From the NCBI GenBank assembly GCA_019359045.1, contig JAHHIA010000002.1, positions 1 to 64,000 of the forward strand: 64,000 nucleotides of DNA. The letters are read 5' to 3'. Origin of the DNA: Scytolyngbya sp. HA4215-MV1 (GTDB taxonomy: Bacteria; Cyanobacteriota; Cyanobacteriia; Leptolyngbyales; Leptolyngbyaceae). The notes under the pieces are model-generated. The model saw only the letters and a list, made by a program, of their open reading frames with translations, had not been told where the DNA came from and searched no databases. Both the position numbers and the translations under genes were made by a program. Below, piece after piece: positions 41,705-62,837 of the stretch. Each line of letters opens with the position of its first letter. Positions within the stretch are counted from its first letter, which is position 1.

Positions 41705-42036
41705 ACGTGTGTCCAGGGCGATCGAGCATTATTTGGCGAGTTGATTCGCCAAGTAATGCTCATACCGATTTAAATTAGAAGCATTGCACACGCATGCTCC
41801 CCCCAAATTCCTCTTAAAAAGGGAGACTTCAGATGAGGGTTACGTTTCCCCCTTTTTCTAGTGCAGTGGTGCGTTAGGGCGGGGGCTAAGGAGGATCTCA
41901 ATCTGTCGCATTAGCCGATTATTGGGATCATTTAGGAGATTTCTAGGAAAAAATCTACCTAACGATCAACCACCTTACCTAGGGGCATACGGCTGTGCGC
42001 CCCTACCAGGCGGTAAATCTTTTCTCAGAAATTTCC
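41705..42036. other. Intergenic region made largely of dispersed repeats
   Basis: It holds a diverged copy of the CCCCCTTAAAAAGGGGG element (41797-41899) and a GGGGCATACGG...CGCCCC hairpin (about 41980-42005). No gene or RNA was seen. Confidence 0.6.
41797..41899. repeat. Diverged solo copy of the GATCCCCC/CTTAAAAAGG element
   Basis: It begins GCTCCCCCCAAATTCCTCTT then AAAAAGGGAGACTTC, and ends GGGCGGGGGCTAAGGAGGATC. Both ends are C-rich/G-rich inverted partners, as in the copy at 56673-56746 and in the repeats that bracket the DUF559 gene. No coding content lies between the ends. Confidence 0.55.
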
Positions 42037-56584: not shown

Positions 56585-56989
56585 GGGTCTGTCCTCCTTG
56601 GGATGGTGGAAGGGTTGGATGGCTGGGCTGGGTTATGCCTAAGAGGATGTTTTTTACAGTAGCAACAGAGATGATCCCCCTAAATTCCCCTTAAAAAGGG
56701 GGACTTTGAGGTTGATCCCTCCCTTGTCAGGGGGCTAGGGGGGAGCTATGAGTGCTTGACATCACAGCGAATACTTTTCAAACAACCTCTAAACAACTTG
56801 CCGATCGTTGCCAGAAGAATTCTAACAGCGTTCCGGACGTAATTCAGTTTAGATCCCTGGTAGATGATGAAGATGTTCTCCTCACGGGTAACGGAACTCA
56901 TTAACCCATCCCTGGAGTATGCTGTCTAGAACATAACCGGGGTTGGGGGAGTAGTGTCGAATTGCAAACTGAGATAAGAGGAGATCGGG
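56585..56989. other. Divergent spacer with a solo repeat element
   Basis: It lies between the histidine phosphatase (minus) and the DEP protein (plus). It contains the CCCCTTAAAAAGGGGG element at 56673-56746; the rest has no recognised gene or RNA. Confidence 0.5.
56673..56746. repeat. Solo GATCCCCC/CCTTAAAAAGGGGG element
   Basis: GATCCCCCTAAATTCCCCTT then AAAAAGGGGGACTTTGAGG, followed by a second hairpin half GATCCCTCCCTTGTCAGGGG and GCTAGGGGGGAGC. The ends are inverted partners, giving a miniature-element-like unit of about 75 bp. It matches the repeats at both sides of the DUF559 gene (60114-60155 and 60534-60561). Confidence 0.65.
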
Positions 56990-58050: not shown

Positions 58051-59850
58051 ATGGCGAAGAATTGGGCGATCGTGGTTGGCATTAATCAATATGAGCACTT
58101 GCCACCTAAGGCTCATTTAAGGTGTGCAGTTCAGGATGCTAAGGCGGTGCGGCTTTTTTTGCATCAAACGGCTGGGTTTGATGCAGAAAACATTCTGCTA
58201 TGTTCAGACACATCCCAACCAGTAGGCTGTCTTTCCACTCGTCCTTCCCGATCGAATTTGCGTAGGTTGCTGAGGGAAGAAATTCAACAGGCTCAAGGAG
58301 CCGAGCATCTCTGGCTGTTTTTTAGCGGGCATGGCATGGTTGGCAAAGATCGTCAAGCCTATTTGCTACCTTGTGATGGCTATCCCAATGATCTGGAAGA
58401 GACAGCTATTTCAGTTGCTTTTGTTACCGATCAACTGCGTCACTGTCAGGCAAAAAACGTCGTGATGGTGCTGGATATGTGCCGTAATGAAGTTCCAGAC
58501 GATCGCAAAGGTACTGAAATAACGATGAGCACCCAGATCGAAGCAATTTCCCGACAGCAGGGCATCATCACATTGTTTGCCTGTAGTCACAATGAGTCCT
58601 CCTACGAAATTCGGGAAATTAATCAGGGAGCCTTTACCCACGTTTTGCTTCAGGGTTTGAAGCAGCACACCATTTTACGTCAACTAGAGCAATACTTATT
58701 GCAAGAAGTACCTGCTATTAACCGTAGATATGGCAAACCGATCCAGACTCCGTTGGTAATTCCTGAACCGGGTTGGAAATATGATTTGCCGTTGCTTCCA
58801 GGCTGCGCTACAGAGGCGGATGTGAAAGTTTTGATGGAAGGGGCTAAGGATGCAGAGTTGGAGGAAAAATTTGAGCAGGCAAAAAGTCTGTGGTGGCAAG
58901 TGATCGAAGCATCTCAGTCTAAAGCCCAGATTGGAGAAGCGAGAAAAGCAATTGAACGCATCGATCGCAAAGAGAAGGATCTTAAGCAAGATCCTTCCCC
59001 CTCTTCCAGGCAATTAGATAATCCGATTCATCCTTTTGCCCTACCATCACCCCTCCCAATCCAAAACGTACCTCCAGTCCCAAAAAACTTGCCTTCTTCA
59101 ACAGCACCTCGTCCTTCGCCTCGTGCCTTAAGCAACACGCAAGAGTCGAACCCTATTCCAGTTAATCCTCCGCCAAACCCAACCCTGGGGAAGATAGTAA
59201 GAAGTAAATCCTCTTTCTTCATGACCCGCCAGCAGTTTTTGAAATTGACGGGGTTTGGTGGGGGTGGTCTGGTCGCTGCCCTAATAATTGGCAATCAGTT
59301 CTTTCAGAATTCTCAAACTCCCTTACCTACTCCATCACCCTCACCTACTCCATCACCCTCACCTACTCCATCACCCTCACCCTCATCTTCCCCAGCCTCT
59401 TTGACCAAGCTGGAGGGTTTGCTCAAGGCAGGAAACTGGAAAGCAGCGGATCAAGAAACGCTGGCTGTGATGCTGAAGATCGCCAAGCGAGAAAAAGAAG
59501 GTTGGCTGGATTTTGACAGCATTAAAACCTTTCCTTGCAAGGATTTGCAGAACATCGATCAACTCTGGGTGAAGTATAGTAACGGCAAATTTGGATTTAG
59601 TGTGCAAAAGAAAATTTACCTGGAAGTAGGGGGTAAACCTGACGGCGAGTATCCAGGTGATACGATATGGGACAAGTTTGGAGATCGTTTAGGATGGCGT
59701 GTGAACAAACAGTGGATCGATTACTCTAGTGTCAACTTCAGCGCCTCAGCACATCCTGGACATTTCCCATTCGGGTTTGTATGGGGATGTGGCGTTTGGT
59801 TTGGTTGTTTAAGCGGTTTTTGGGTTCTTCTTTCACATCCATGCTTGTGA
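58051..59850 (+). CDS. Caspase-fold protease fused to GUN4 domain
   Basis: The product has 599 residues. A peptidase C14 domain (about 1-245) shows KNWAIVVGINQYEHLPPKAH, catalytic His94 (LFFSGHGMVGKD) and Cys144 (VMVLDMCRNEV). A helical stretch (about 262-310) and a Pro-rich linker follow. Then comes a membrane-like segment (TRQQFLKLTGFGGGGLVAAL, 392-411), reminiscent of Tat-type internal signals in other cyanobacterial effectors. A PSPTPSPS repeat (about 426-446, from an 18-bp tandem repeat) leads to a C-terminal GUN4 domain (about 451-599: LLKAGNWKAADQETLAVMLK, FPCKDLQNIDQLWVKYSNGK, FGDRLGWRVNKQWIDYS). GUN4 binds porphyrins, so a tetrapyrrole- or redox-triggered protease is a reasonable guess. 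It is coupled to the Trypco1 gene. Confidence 0.9.
   Translation: MAKNWAIVVGINQYEHLPPKAHLRCAVQDAKAVRLFLHQTAGFDAENILLCSDTSQPVGCLSTRPSRSNLRRLLREEIQQAQGAEHLWLFFSGHGMVGKDRQAYLLPCDGYPNDLEETAISVAFVTDQLRHCQAKNVVMVLDMCRNEVPDDRKGTEITMSTQIEAISRQQGIITLFACSHNESSYEIREINQGAFTHVLLQGLKQHTILRQLEQYLLQEVPAINRRYGKPIQTPLVIPEPGWKYDLPLLPGCATEADVKVLMEGAKDAELEEKFEQAKSLWWQVIEASQSKAQIGEARKAIERIDRKEKDLKQDPSPSSRQLDNPIHPFALPSPLPIQNVPPVPKNLPSSTAPRPSPRALSNTQESNPIPVNPPPNPTLGKIVRSKSSFFMTRQQFLKLTGFGGGGLVAALIIGNQFFQNSQTPLPTPSPSPTPSPSPTPSPSPSSSPASLTKLEGLLKAGNWKAADQETLAVMLKIAKREKEGWLDFDSIKTFPCKDLQNIDQLWVKYSNGKFGFSVQKKIYLEVGGKPDGEYPGDTIWDKFGDRLGWRVNKQWIDYSSVNFSASAHPGHFPFGFVWGCGVWFGCLSGFWVLLSHPCL
59323..59388 (+). repeat. 18-bp tandem repeat encoding a PSPTPS linker
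   Basis: The unit CCTACTCCATCACCCTCA is repeated three to four times with a degenerate end, giving the Pro/Ser/Thr linker between the membrane-like segment and the GUN4 domain of the caspase protein. Copy number could vary between strains. Confidence 0.8.
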
Positions 59851-59906: not shown

Positions 59907-60127
59907 CTACGAAGAATCCGGGTTCTGGCGTTTCGTTACCTGGCACCGCTGTCGCTCCATCTGCGTAAGTGCCGCTTCTGAGTTGTAGCAATTTGCCAGC
60001 ACAAACTTCTCTGCCACTGACCGGATTTCTTCTACCGGGGCATTCCATTCATCCCATAAGCTTTTTTGCCCTGGACTCACTTTGGCAGATTTGCCCTTAA
60101 TGCTCGGATTCTTCAAAGTCCCCCTTT
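59907..60127 (-). other. Possible protein remnant beside the DUF559 unit
   Basis: After the inverted repeat, a minus frame reads SIKGKSAKVSPGQKSLWDEW, then NAPVEEIRSVAEKFVLANCY and NSEAALTQMERQRCQVTKRQ, ending at 59907. Its composition looks protein-like but it has no start of its own and no family I recognise. It may be the 3' stub of a gene interrupted by the repeat-bounded unit. Confidence 0.35.
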
Positions 60128-60155
60128 TTAAGGGGGATTTAGGGGGATCTCCTCC
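60114..60155. repeat. Left inverted repeat of the DUF559 unit
   Basis: CTTCAAAGTCCCCCTTTTTA continues AGGGGGATTTAGGGGGATCT. It is, with few differences, the reverse complement of the copy at 60534-60561 on the other side of the DUF559 gene, and it encodes the last residues of that protein (EEIPLNPP). Confidence 0.8.
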
Positions 60156-60520
60156 CCGATCCTCTGACACACACCCTCAAATTGATTGATCACCTCATTA
60201 TTGCTGAACCGTATCACCTTTAATCCATAACCTTCCAAGGTTTGTGTTCGCTCCAAATCCCGCATCAACCCTTCCTCTGTAAAGTGGCTCTCTCCATCCA
60301 CCTCAATTACTAATTTCAAAGCTGCACAATAGAAATCTGCAATGAATTGACCAATGGGACGTTGCCGCAATACCCGAAATGGGAACGTTTGCAAGCAGTC
60401 TTGCCAGAGTTTTTTCTCTGCTAGAGTAGGATTTTGACGTAATTCTTTTGCTCTCTCAACCAGCTTAGGGTTGTAGGGAAGATGGAAGTTACGGAAGTTG
60501 CTGATGTTGAGTTCGGGCAT
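60128..60520 (-). CDS. DUF559 protein (Vsr-like PD-(D/E)XK endonuclease fold)
   Basis: The start at 60520 (MPELNISNFRNFHLPYNPKL) gives 130 residues. The core LVERAKELRQNPTLAEKKLW, then FRVLRQRPIGQFIADFYCAA and LKLVIEVDGESH is the DUF559 pattern: D in IADFY and E-x-D in IEVDG are the expected nuclease metal ligands, as in Vsr-type very-short-patch endonucleases. Target and role are unknown. The gene sits between inverted copies of a C-rich palindromic repeat. The reading frame also extends upstream through the repeat into a RAYT transposase start (60593-60652), but I treat that as a separate fragment. Confidence 0.88.
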   Translation of the reverse strand: MPELNISNFRNFHLPYNPKLVERAKELRQNPTLAEKKLWQDCLQTFPFRVLRQRPIGQFIADFYCAALKLVIEVDGESHFTEEGLMRDLERTQTLEGYGLKVIRFSNNEVINQFEGVCQRIGEEIPLNPP

Positions 60521-60533
60521 ATTAGATCCCCCA

Positions 60534-60561
60534 AACCCCCTTAAAAAAGGGGCTTTGAAAG
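60534..60561. repeat. Right inverted repeat of the DUF559 unit
   Basis: GATCCCCCAAACCCCCTTAA then AAAAGGGGCTTTG. It pairs as the reverse complement of 60114-60155. With it, the DUF559 coding region lies in a unit of about 450 bp with inverted ends. Confidence 0.8.
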
Positions 60562-60592
60562 TATGTGCATTTAGATTTCCCAAGGTTATATA

Positions 60593-60652
60593 GCGAATTG
60601 TGATGTGATAGCAAAAACCAGCCTGAAGCTGACGAGGTTGACGAGACATCAT
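60593..60652 (-). pseudogene. RAYT (REP-associated Y1 transposase) 5' stub
   Basis: The minus strand reads RQPRQLQAGFCYHITIR directly after MMS. This is the conserved start of IS200-like REP-associated tyrosine transposases, where the HxH motif follows shortly. Here the similarity stops at 60593 and the frame runs into the C-rich repeat (KAPFLRGFGGSN). The rest of the transposase is absent, so it was cut by the DUF559 unit or by deletion. Confidence 0.65.
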
Positions 60653-60822: not shown

Positions 60823-61050
60823 ATGGAAACAATCCGTCAGGTCATTGAAATCAAAGGCGATCGTAAGGTGCAAATTACCTTACCGAATACCATTGAGCCA
60901 GGTTTAGTGGAGATGGTCATTGTAGTGCGATCGCTGCCACAGATTGAGCCTGAAACTGCTCCTCAAGCCACTCACCTATTTGGCTTTTTGCCCCAACGGG
61001 TTGATCCACTCCAGTTTCAACAACAGTTAAGAGATGAATGGAATCGGTAG
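60823..61050 (+). CDS. VapB-type antitoxin
   Basis: These 75 residues begin METIRQVIEIKGDRKVQITL, a beta-rich DNA-binding-like start, and end with a helical tail QFQQQLRDEWNR that would wrap the toxin. It directly precedes and overlaps the PIN toxin by 17 bp, the normal antitoxin-first order. A TTG at 60814 is a possible earlier start. The N-terminal family cannot be fixed by eye. Confidence 0.8.
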   Translation: METIRQVIEIKGDRKVQITLPNTIEPGLVEMVIVVRSLPQIEPETAPQATHLFGFLPQRVDPLQFQQQLRDEWNR

Positions 61051-61432
61051 CCGTTATTTACTCGACACAAATATCTTCATCTACTATTTCAATGGCGATC
61101 CAGTTGTTCAACCGATTGTAGAAGACATCTTGACCGGGAATTCGACAGGTTTTTATTGTCCAGTTAGTTGGGTTGAACTCCTTTGCTATCCCGCTTTAAC
61201 AGAAGAAGAAGCTGAACAGATTCGCGCATTTTTGCGATCGCTGACCTATGTTGCGTTGACAGAATCCGTTCTAGACAGAACTGCTCAGATTCGTCGAGAT
61301 TATCGAACTGCTTTGCCAGATGCTCTGATTGCAGCTTGTGCGCTAGAGGTATCCAGTCCTTTAGTGACACGAAATATCCAGGATTTTAGAGCGATTCATG
61401 AACTAATCGTTATCAACCCCTTCGAGCTTTGA
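61034..61432 (+). CDS. VapC-type PIN-domain toxin
   Basis: These 132 residues form a PIN ribonuclease: D11 in RYLLDTNIFIYYFNG, Glu in VSWVELLCYPAL, and the distal Asps in LPDALIAACAL and VTRNIQDFRAI. VapC toxins cleave tRNA or rRNA when freed from VapB. All acidic ligands are present, so it is likely active. It overlaps its antitoxin gene by 17 bp and converges on the truncated antitoxin and unknown genes on the minus strand. Confidence 0.92.
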   Translation: MNGIGSRYLLDTNIFIYYFNGDPVVQPIVEDILTGNSTGFYCPVSWVELLCYPALTEEEAEQIRAFLRSLTYVALTESVLDRTAQIRRDYRTALPDALIAACALEVSSPLVTRNIQDFRAIHELIVINPFEL

Positions 61433-61706: not shown

Positions 61707-62228
61707 TTAGATCCCTCGATCGGGTGCTTCACTCAGTTTATCGAAATAGGTGATGCTGGCTTTTGCCCAGACGCTTTCCTCCAGGTAGTGTTTGGCAACT
61801 TCCCCAAGTGTGGCTTTGATGGCTTGGAGGTGACGTTCTGGATTGAGGATCTGTTGGTGCAGGGTTGCCAATCGATGCATTTTGAATGGTTGAGTTTCGG
61901 TGAATTCTGCGTCGATGATGGCGAGTGCTTCAGTTTCGGTGGTGACGTGGGGATGTTGGGTTTGAAGTTGAGTCAACAGCGTTTGCAGTTCAGCGATCGC
62001 GCGCTTAATTTCGGGGTCGATTGGGTGATTGATTTGACTGCCAATCTGATCGCCTTGCACGGTACCGCCCAGGTTAACGGCTGAGTGCTTTGTGGTTAGA
62101 TTGCCGATGTTGAAGGAGTCATTATCTTGGAATCCTACTTGATCACCTTGAATAGTGACATCGCCTGTGTTGAGATTACCGACTTGGTTGATATGGAAAG
62201 TAGATCGATTTTTAGGCTGGTTTGTCAT
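61707..62228 (-). CDS. Unknown protein with NTGDVTIxGDQxG motif
   Basis: In this 173-residue protein residues 1-66 hold repeated glycine/asparagine motifs (INQVGNLNTGDVTIQGDQVG, NIGNLTTKHSAVNLGGTVQG) that look like a short beta-solenoid. The rest is helical (DPEIKRAIAELQTLLTQLQT, HLQAIKATLGEVAKHYLEES). The same N-terminal motif ends the HEAT-repeat gene upstream (VGNFNTGDVTIHGNQIGDN). Its ATG overlaps the RelE toxin stop by four bases, so it is cotranscribed with the toxin-antitoxin pair. Function unknown; an adaptor joining helical effectors is a guess. Confidence 0.75.
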   Translation of the reverse strand: MTNQPKNRSTFHINQVGNLNTGDVTIQGDQVGFQDNDSFNIGNLTTKHSAVNLGGTVQGDQIGSQINHPIDPEIKRAIAELQTLLTQLQTQHPHVTTETEALAIIDAEFTETQPFKMHRLATLHQQILNPERHLQAIKATLGEVAKHYLEESVWAKASITYFDKLSEAPDRGI

Positions 62229-62602
62229 GGGATGGAATCGGGGGGGGAGATTTGCTGTTCGTATTGGGCAATGATGGCTTCGATCGCTGCTGCATCGACA
62301 TCAGTGAGATCAGACTTGGAATAGATGGTGGCAAGAATGATGCTGGCAACCGTTTTAACGTAGTAGATGACGCGGTAGCCACCACTTTTGCCTTTTTGGA
62401 CATTGCTGTTTTTGAGACGAACTTTGAAAACGGTGTAGGTGACTCCCGCGATGCGATCGCCTGGAAGTTCACCCGCTTGCAGTTGGTCAATTAAGGGTTG
62501 AAGATTCGAACGAATCTGGCGGTAGCGCTTGGCGAGGTTGCGGAGATCACGCTGAAAATGGGGAGTGAGGTCAATTTGAATGGAGGGTGGATCAGTCGGC
62601 AT
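62225..62602 (-). CDS. RelE/ParE-family toxin
   Basis: From 62602 (MPTDPPSIQIDL) it has 125 residues; an in-frame start at 62611 adds three. The RelE/HigB-like core is visible: FQRDLRNLAKRYRQIRSNLQ, IAGVTYTVFKVRLKNSNVQK, GKSGGYRVIYYVKTVASIIL and LATIYSKSD. Such toxins cleave mRNA at the ribosome or act on gyrase. The antitoxin gene overlaps its start by 11 bp, and the unknown gene at 61707 starts in its stop codon. Confidence 0.88.
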   Translation of the reverse strand: MPTDPPSIQIDLTPHFQRDLRNLAKRYRQIRSNLQPLIDQLQAGELPGDRIAGVTYTVFKVRLKNSNVQKGKSGGYRVIYYVKTVASIILATIYSKSDLTDVDAAAIEAIIAQYEQQISPPDSIP

Positions 62603-62837
62603 CAATTCCATCCCACAGTTGAGCTAGGGGAATGGTTTGCCCAGTGAAAGCTTCGTGTAAGCCTTGGCGAATCCCTTCAAGGACGACCTCCGTAGGGGTA
62701 TCGTCGGGGTCGGGGTTCTCATCTTCGGGGATGAGGACGATGACTCGAACCCGACGAGGTTGGGTTGGGTCAAGCGGGGTGTCGAGGGTGAGTTGTCCCA
62801 GGTCGTTGATGGTGGCAGTGGTTTCGATCGCTTTCAT
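62592..62837 (-). CDS. Antitoxin of the RelE-type pair
   Basis: The start at 62837 gives 81 residues, beginning MKAIETTATINDLGQLTLDT and ending GLHEAFTGQTIPLAQLWDGI. The N-terminal part is a small beta-rich domain seen in many cyanobacterial antitoxins; the helical tail should neutralise the toxin. It overlaps the toxin gene and lies eight bases after the HEAT gene stop. Its first 30 codons are duplicated at 61610-61702. Confidence 0.85.
   Translation of the reverse strand: MKAIETTATINDLGQLTLDTPLDPTQPRRVRVIVLIPEDENPDPDDTPTEVVLEGIRQGLHEAFTGQTIPLAQLWDGIDAD

Follow-up and report, generated by a model that had tools for sequence, protein, structure and literature searches.

Introduction

Bacterial genomes commonly contain short palindromic repeats, for which RAYT is the enzyme usually held responsible. 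In the REPIN-RAYT system, as far as the consulted parts of PMC3116915 and PMC6006769 describe it, paired inverted REP doublets are present in many copies per genome, the enzyme gene is flanked by repeats, the repeat families are enzyme-specific, and the enzyme is an HUH tyrosine transposase. According to a section of PMC3733652, the REPs of this system also have a tag, GTAG or CGTC, at their foot. In a section on inteins, PMC9403480 places a DUF559 gene in the EDxHD homing family; I-Bth0305I is a homing endonuclease of the EDxHD type (PMC3943268, PMC9403480). For VsrA, a DUF559 protein of Caulobacter, part of PMC12907096 reports a Vsr-like nuclease and a link to a solitary cytosine methyltransferase; Vsr itself is treated in part of PMC11878797. 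Palindromic elements that lie in frame within proteins are described for Rickettsia in part of PMC10969869.

Here we analysed a DUF559 gene of the cyanobacterium Scytolyngbya sp. HA4215-MV1, found in a window of 64,000 nucleotides (contig JAHHIA010000002.1, positions 1 to 64,000). The DUF559-linked repeats resemble those of the REPIN-RAYT system in their paired inverted doublets, their many copies per genome, the enzyme gene that they flank and their enzyme-specific families. However, the linked enzyme is an EDxHD/Vsr-like nuclease, not an HUH transposase; moreover, unlike in that system as the cited parts present it, the doublets can sit in reading frames and direct REPIN copies can flank the gene. 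Similarity to I-Bth0305I, as covered by the cited parts, lies in fold and profile, in the existence of occupied and empty sites, and in the placement of DUF559 in an apparent intein (L103, L108; loci and genomes are denoted by L and G numbers). In contrast to homing of that type, the REPIN-bounded units lie in many different genes, are bounded by palindromes, and have no recognised intron or intein around them. VsrA shares the Pfam domain, but the part of PMC12907096 consulted mentions no palindromic repeats. The Rickettsia elements share the in-frame position of the repeats, but no nuclease gene is mentioned in the corresponding part of PMC10969869. Some lone REPINs lie, like cyanobacterial MITEs, in repeats with terminal inverted repeats, but these ends differ from those at which the examined DUF559 units end.

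The literature searched (open PMC only) yielded no account of DUF559 together with palindromic repeats, and a word search for "DUF" in the main texts of PMC3733652 and of PMC12306157 had no match. Both REPINs and EDxHD homing nucleases are already known; their pairing as one unit appears to be new. The sequence comparisons given below suggest that this pairing is probably a homing-type mobile element, in which a DUF559 nuclease of EDxHD/Vsr-like kin is bounded by its own cognate REPIN-like doublets.

Results

The DUF559 unit in the window

The first-pass annotation, made from the sequence of the window, proposed a mobile unit at 60114-60561 in which near-identical repeats of 30-40 bp in opposite orientation bracket a DUF559 frame. 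Our analysis confirmed an intact gene bracketed by two inverted palindromic arms, while the bounds of the unit were moved outward by homology to L104 (Table 1); in the comparison of L004 with L104 this homology reaches from -62 to +37 around the DUF559 domain. The arms are complementary at 76% over 37 nt and at 84% over 25 nt, and are therefore called alike here, not near-identical. The repeat does form the last codons of the frame, as had been annotated: the end of the gene product (..EEIPLNPP) is encoded by the downstream arm, and the stop codon lies within it. The GATC-type ends of both arms point toward the gene. A longer DUF559 frame, up to 60652, runs on into a RAYT fragment and passes the Pfam cut-off for PF04480 (E 5.4e-28; 97.5 bits against a cut-off of 20.6).

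Table 1. Positions of the DUF559 unit, the RAYT fragments and the gene-free repeat copies in the window.
Feature	Position	Strand	Remark
DUF559 unit	about 60109..60582	-	bounds from homology to the L104 unit (other genome)
DUF559 nuclease gene, intact	60128..60520	-	PF04480 match; likely start MPELN
Downstream palindromic arm	60113..60149	-	encodes last codons of the DUF559 gene
Upstream palindromic arm	60525..60561	+	inverted relative to the downstream arm
RAYT N-terminal fragment	60593..60649	-	query codons 1-19, 63% identity, E 5.5e-5
RAYT C-terminal fragment	59982..60098	-	codons about 205-243, 77% identity
REPIN-like doublet without gene	56673..56746	+	lies centrally in a MITE-like repeat at about 56640-56792 (ends by eye)
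Degenerate REPIN-like doublet without gene	41797..41899	+	6 arm mismatches

Other genes were also noted nearby. A protein with caspase-like Peptidase_C14 and GUN4 domains is encoded at 58051-59850, and a PIN-domain protein (61034-61432) and a ParE/RelE-like protein (62225-62611) are possible products of toxin-antitoxin genes.

RAYT as the interrupted gene

The frame upstream of the DUF559 gene opens with a RAYT start, the downstream frame (59907-60170) carries a RAYT end, and the middle codons between the two fragments are absent. Read from its sequence, the copy in the window is a DUF559 unit with an arm on either side, and the RAYT gene in which it lies is broken. Intact RAYTs of this host family are mostly 250-265 aa long and have the C-terminus ..GQKSLWDEWDAPAEEIRKVAEKFVLANC or a similar one. 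Among the 83 DUF559 loci, four lie inside this RAYT: that of the window, L003, L104 and, in the opposite sense, L085. The missing codons differ, being about 20-205 in the window, 60-177 in L104 and 105-215 in L003. We make no claim of a clean insertion into RAYT; the differing gaps agree with replacement or later decay.

Repeats were present in 2 of the 44 flank windows of intact host-family RAYTs (22 of 30 loci were taken) and in 2/52 flank windows of Y1_Tnp loci (26 of 30 taken). Because intact members of the family are without these repeats, unlike what the cited parts on REPIN-RAYT describe for a cognate RAYT, we regard RAYT as a host gene and not as the partner. On the same ground, and as the gene that the units interrupt, it is ruled out as the owner of the repeats.

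Two further observations were made. In L003, the 5' palindromic arm with the first DUF559 codons is repeated in tandem, in three copies spaced by 110 nt (1192-1450). In G022 there are 42 Y1_Tnp matches, most with the same score and frame length, which represent an expanded IS200-like element.

Linkage of the repeats to DUF559 genes

The first locus set comprised the 50 strongest (E < 1e-20) of the 86 DUF559 matches listed for 58 related genomes, the 36 weaker ones being omitted. A scan of named genomes gave a second set of 33 loci, of which nine are cyanobacterial. The rest come mainly from Bacteroidetes and Clostridia; Chlorobiota, Nitrospirae and unplaced records occur singly. Short flanks removed 1 of the 50 and 6 of the 33 loci from the detector test. 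The detector, a C-run plus a C-rich hairpin, was designed after the sequences had been looked at; its loop limit was 9 nt in the main flank test and 12 in the repeat typing, Y1_Tnp, RAYT and co-variation tests.

In the first set (49 usable loci), repeats were detected in 81/98 flank windows against 10/236 distant control windows, and in 84/98 against 11/236 at a loop limit of 12. Repeats stood on both sides at 33 of the 49 loci, on one side at 15 and on neither at one. The second set gave 43/54 flank windows against 10/158 controls, made up of 16/16 against 7/48 in cyanobacteria (8 of 9 loci usable) and 27/38 against 3/110 in the other bacteria (19 of 24 usable). L001 and L002 bear repeats of another type. 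Two results count against the homing-element reading: the four clostridial loci had repeats in just 2 of 8 flank windows, and the intein-like L103 and L108 have no repeat pair (one side in L103, neither in L108).

Since the detector was designed with the sequences in view, an alignment of left with right flanks served as a motif-free check. It took 73 of the 83 loci, and the score was at least 20 in 57 of them against 0 of 64 controls. The repeats are hairpins and are often intergenic, as they would be if they were ordinary terminators or intergenic hairpins beside a small gene. This explanation is contradicted by the flank similarity, by repeat peptides read in frame and by the cognate variation of the repeats with the DUF559 clade (see below for both), and we find it hardly credible. 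The palindrome-bounded DUF559 package recurs in many cyanobacteria and in some other bacteria.

Unit architecture and host reading frames

Judged from sequence, the repeat is a REPIN-like doublet, and in the clearest cases the unit reads REPIN-DUF559-REPIN and ends at the REPIN ends. In L073, two 96-nt REPINs that are identical at 95 of 96 positions flank the gene in direct order; homology with L051, for which the host gene is a different one, sets in at the very first base of the REPINs and stops 3 nt beyond the last. The same unit was found in different host genes in three pairs (L051/L073, L088/L092 and L053/L071). At other loci the gene lies between two inward-pointing arms, or between outward-pointing ones as in the window. 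Of the 73 loci aligned, 37 had the better flank match in inverted and 34 in direct orientation, with 2 ties, and long direct repeats (score at least 40) were present in 25/73. The unit had been annotated as a miniature transposon or homing-like unit. Its mobility is supported, and the form of a miniature transposon with terminal inverted repeats applies to part of the loci.

Open frames longer than 300 aa contain 27 of the 83 DUF559 loci (L064 and L071 are one place counted twice), and the other 56, including that of the window, lie in frames of at most 300 aa. In 19 of the 27 large frames, peptides encoded by the repeats are in frame on both sides, which argues against terminators. Fifteen large frames were scanned. 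A restriction or methylase family (Eco57I, MmeI, Type ISP or N6_N4_Mtase) was above the Pfam cut-off in 10, one of them the intein-like L103, was weak in 3, and was not found in 2 (L048, L101).

These hosts would also be expected if the units were kept as a nuclease domain donated to restriction-modification proteins, with the REPINs as tolerated linkers, and the large frames together with the 10 strong and 3 weak family matches favour this. We consider it distinctly unlikely, since most loci, 56/83, lie in the short frames and the unit is absent from one restriction-modification site in 33 of 36 genomes.

DUF559 was also seen in an apparent intein in L103 (G057) and L108 (G025). For L103 there is an Intein_splicing match below the cut-off (E 8.9e-4) besides the reading by eye, and its frame additionally holds an N6_N4 DNA methylase.

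Empty, lone-REPIN and filled sites

The restriction-modification site mentioned above lies in an MmeI-type gene, before its NPPF motif. It was uninterrupted in 33 of the 36 genomes (30 read) and filled in two (G032, G033), and one was a partial match. In the filling by L073 about four codons are replaced and the frame is kept. No target site duplication, for which the first-pass annotation had suggested looking, was seen at L073, the sole site read at base level, whose empty relatives have diverged.

At a second restriction-modification site, after ..VHVSIVNW, the best 30 matches run through (20 read) and four genomes are filled. G020 has a single REPIN and no gene there; in G103 a REPIN is present, after which the sequence, as read by eye, jumps toward the C-terminal part. 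Of the four filled genomes, two keep the frame, whereas in G117 and G084 it is broken; this counts against the homing-element reading. So does the test of monophyly of the four DUF559s, which was not rejected (p-AU 0.251). The four filled copies may form one clade, and repeated homing to one restriction-modification site was not upheld.

Empty, lone-REPIN and filled states are thus found at host sites. The first-pass annotation would have been refuted by repeats that are unlinked to DUF559 genes elsewhere and by a lack of empty sites. The opposite was seen for both, given the flank enrichment in both locus sets and the flank similarity, and its two main points, a mobile unit and a link of the repeats to the nuclease, are supported.

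Fold, active site and selection of the nuclease

A profile of 20 members matched two PDB structures, 3hrl at E 1.5e-30 and, at E 3.5e-4, 3r3p, which is that of the homing endonuclease I-Bth0305I. The AlphaFold2 model of DUF559 (pLDDT 86.7, pTM 0.79) had the same two structures as its best Foldseek matches (3r3p: E 1.4e-3, TMt 0.78), with Vsr at rank 12. The predicted fold is therefore nearest to 3hrl and I-Bth0305I, closer than to Vsr. E35, D62, E73, D75 and H79 are invariant in all 76 of 76 DUF559 proteins; these acidic and histidine residues are of a putative active-site type, the E-D-x-H-D motif being our own assignment and not residue-mapped. The dN/dS ratio was 0.04-0.27 in 15 of 18 pairs, 6 of the 15 having dS >1, and dS was saturated in the other three. 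These ratios indicate that DUF559 is under purifying selection.

DUF559 could instead be a Vsr-like repair or methylation-linked nuclease whose repeats just mark favoured insertion spots. The link reported for Caulobacter VsrA in the consulted part of PMC12907096 and the DNA methylases among many hosts are in its favour, but the fold is closer to I-Bth0305I and the repeats are clade-specific, and we hold this to be very improbable.

Repeat type and nuclease clade

The DUF559 tree and the tests based on it kept 76 of the 83 loci, domain proteins of <95 aa being excluded. The co-variation test used 71 of the 76, without the loci that had no detected repeat, the intein pair and the duplicate L064. 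When ordered by the tree, the repeat sequences fall into clade-specific types, and G013 has three DUF559 clades with three repeat types. Repeat similarity was correlated with protein similarity (Mantel r 0.566 for the 71 loci and 0.653 for the 44 cyanobacterial ones; 0/999 permutations each). In contests within genomes, the repeat was nearer to that of the protein's closest relative in another genome in 23/24 cases, which are non-independent (15 loci, 6 genomes). As far as can be read from these sequences, the repeat tracks the DUF559 clade rather than the genome.

For the copy-number tests, we assigned the clades from the DUF559 tree. With host kinship uncorrected throughout, at least 3 window-type arms were present in 10 of 11 genomes with a window-clade DUF559 against 7 of 47 without (p 3.6e-6; p 0.0013 to 0.0001 at the thresholds of 1, 5 and 10, and 0.0014 or less throughout), and at least 3 copies of the methylase-clade repeat in 15/16 genomes against 17/42 (p 0.00025; p 0.017 to 0.0008 at the other thresholds from 1 to 30). 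Several genomes count against such a relation and against the homing-element reading. Five without a window-clade DUF559 have 9-82 window-type arms (G003, G005, G011, G024 and G057, the last with 82). The genome of the window has two methylase-clade DUF559s and just 5 copies of that repeat type. G008 and G026 have 130 and 83 copies of the methylase-clade repeat without any DUF559 match. That the number of repeats depends strictly on a DUF559 in the same genome is ruled out by the many-copy genomes without a matching one.

Repeat copies in the genome of the window

With up to 3 mismatches allowed, a 32-nt arm pattern had 34 matches across the 6.6-Mb genome, and its reversed control had none. 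An inverted partner arm was found by a strict pattern in 18 of the 30 copies read (L005-L034) and in more by eye. The REPIN-like doublets are about 63 to 130 nt long, with GATC-type ends outside, so that this genome has a dispersed doublet of two inverted REPs, as in REPINs. No consistent foot tag was seen by eye across the repeat types; a few arms, e.g. in L072, have GTAG beside the foot. The two copies that had been annotated as solo in the window are indeed free of a gene, but they are not solo. Both are two-armed REPIN-like doublets of the opposite sense, with GATC-type ends outward. A nested palindrome CTAGCGCAGCGG..GCTAAAGCACG was also observed within some REPIN hairpin loops (e.g. L007, L008, L022, L030).

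Reading by eye placed about 24 of the 30 copies within three MITE-like families whose ends are unrelated, which counts against the homing-element reading. The left flank of the degenerate copy in the window, from 41762, resembles by eye a second, unrelated family of this kind. Therefore, the repeat number in this genome may come from MITE transposases and need not reflect DUF559. The terminal repeats of the three families with central REPIN cores were read by eye as TTAGAGG.TGTTT.., ATACCAATTT.. and GCTACCGTGTACAC...

This nesting and the many-copy genomes without a matching DUF559 are what would be expected if DUF559 were a passenger, the REPINs being spread by RAYT or by IS transposases on REPIN-bearing MITEs and DUF559 persisting or moving between REPINs by homologous recombination. 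A weak enrichment of the repeat was also seen in genomes that have the host RAYT family (at least 5 copies in 7/14 against 7/44, p 0.027; RAYT presence was taken from a 291-genome set that may not include all 58). However, Y1_Tnp genes and intact host-family RAYTs are not flanked by these repeats, and a passenger would predict no tracking of the DUF559 clade by the repeat within genomes, which was seen in 23 of 24 contests. A passenger role is unlikely on this evidence, though less so than the other alternatives considered.

Discussion

We prefer to read the DUF559 unit as a homing-type element bounded by cognate REPIN-like doublets. The idea of the first-pass annotation that DUF559 could act on the repeats has indirect support, from the co-variation of repeat and clade. 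The nuclease would cut DNA at or near its cognate REPIN, or at an unoccupied target, and the break would be mended by copying a REPIN-DUF559-REPIN donor. Later recombination between the two direct REPINs could excise the gene, so that one REPIN stays behind alone.

Taken further, these units might represent a new class of mobile element in several bacterial phyla, in which a homing-type nuclease with its own REPIN family is a counterpart of RAYT with a different chemistry. Such an enzyme would cut cognate REPINs or unoccupied alleles, with lone REPINs as landing sites, would spread both the repeats and itself, and would often lie in genes for DNA methyltransferases and RAYT, that is, in rival selfish or defence genes. 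We put this wider reading forward tentatively, as possible but somewhat short of probable.

Repeat families that have no RAYT partner could be explained by a second enzyme, unrelated to RAYT, that has cognate repeats of its own. Such an enzyme would also point to a function for members of DUF559, whose name still marks the family's function as unknown, and would stand for a kind of mobile DNA that restriction-modification proteins carry in frame. The question of what copies these repeats thereby becomes testable.
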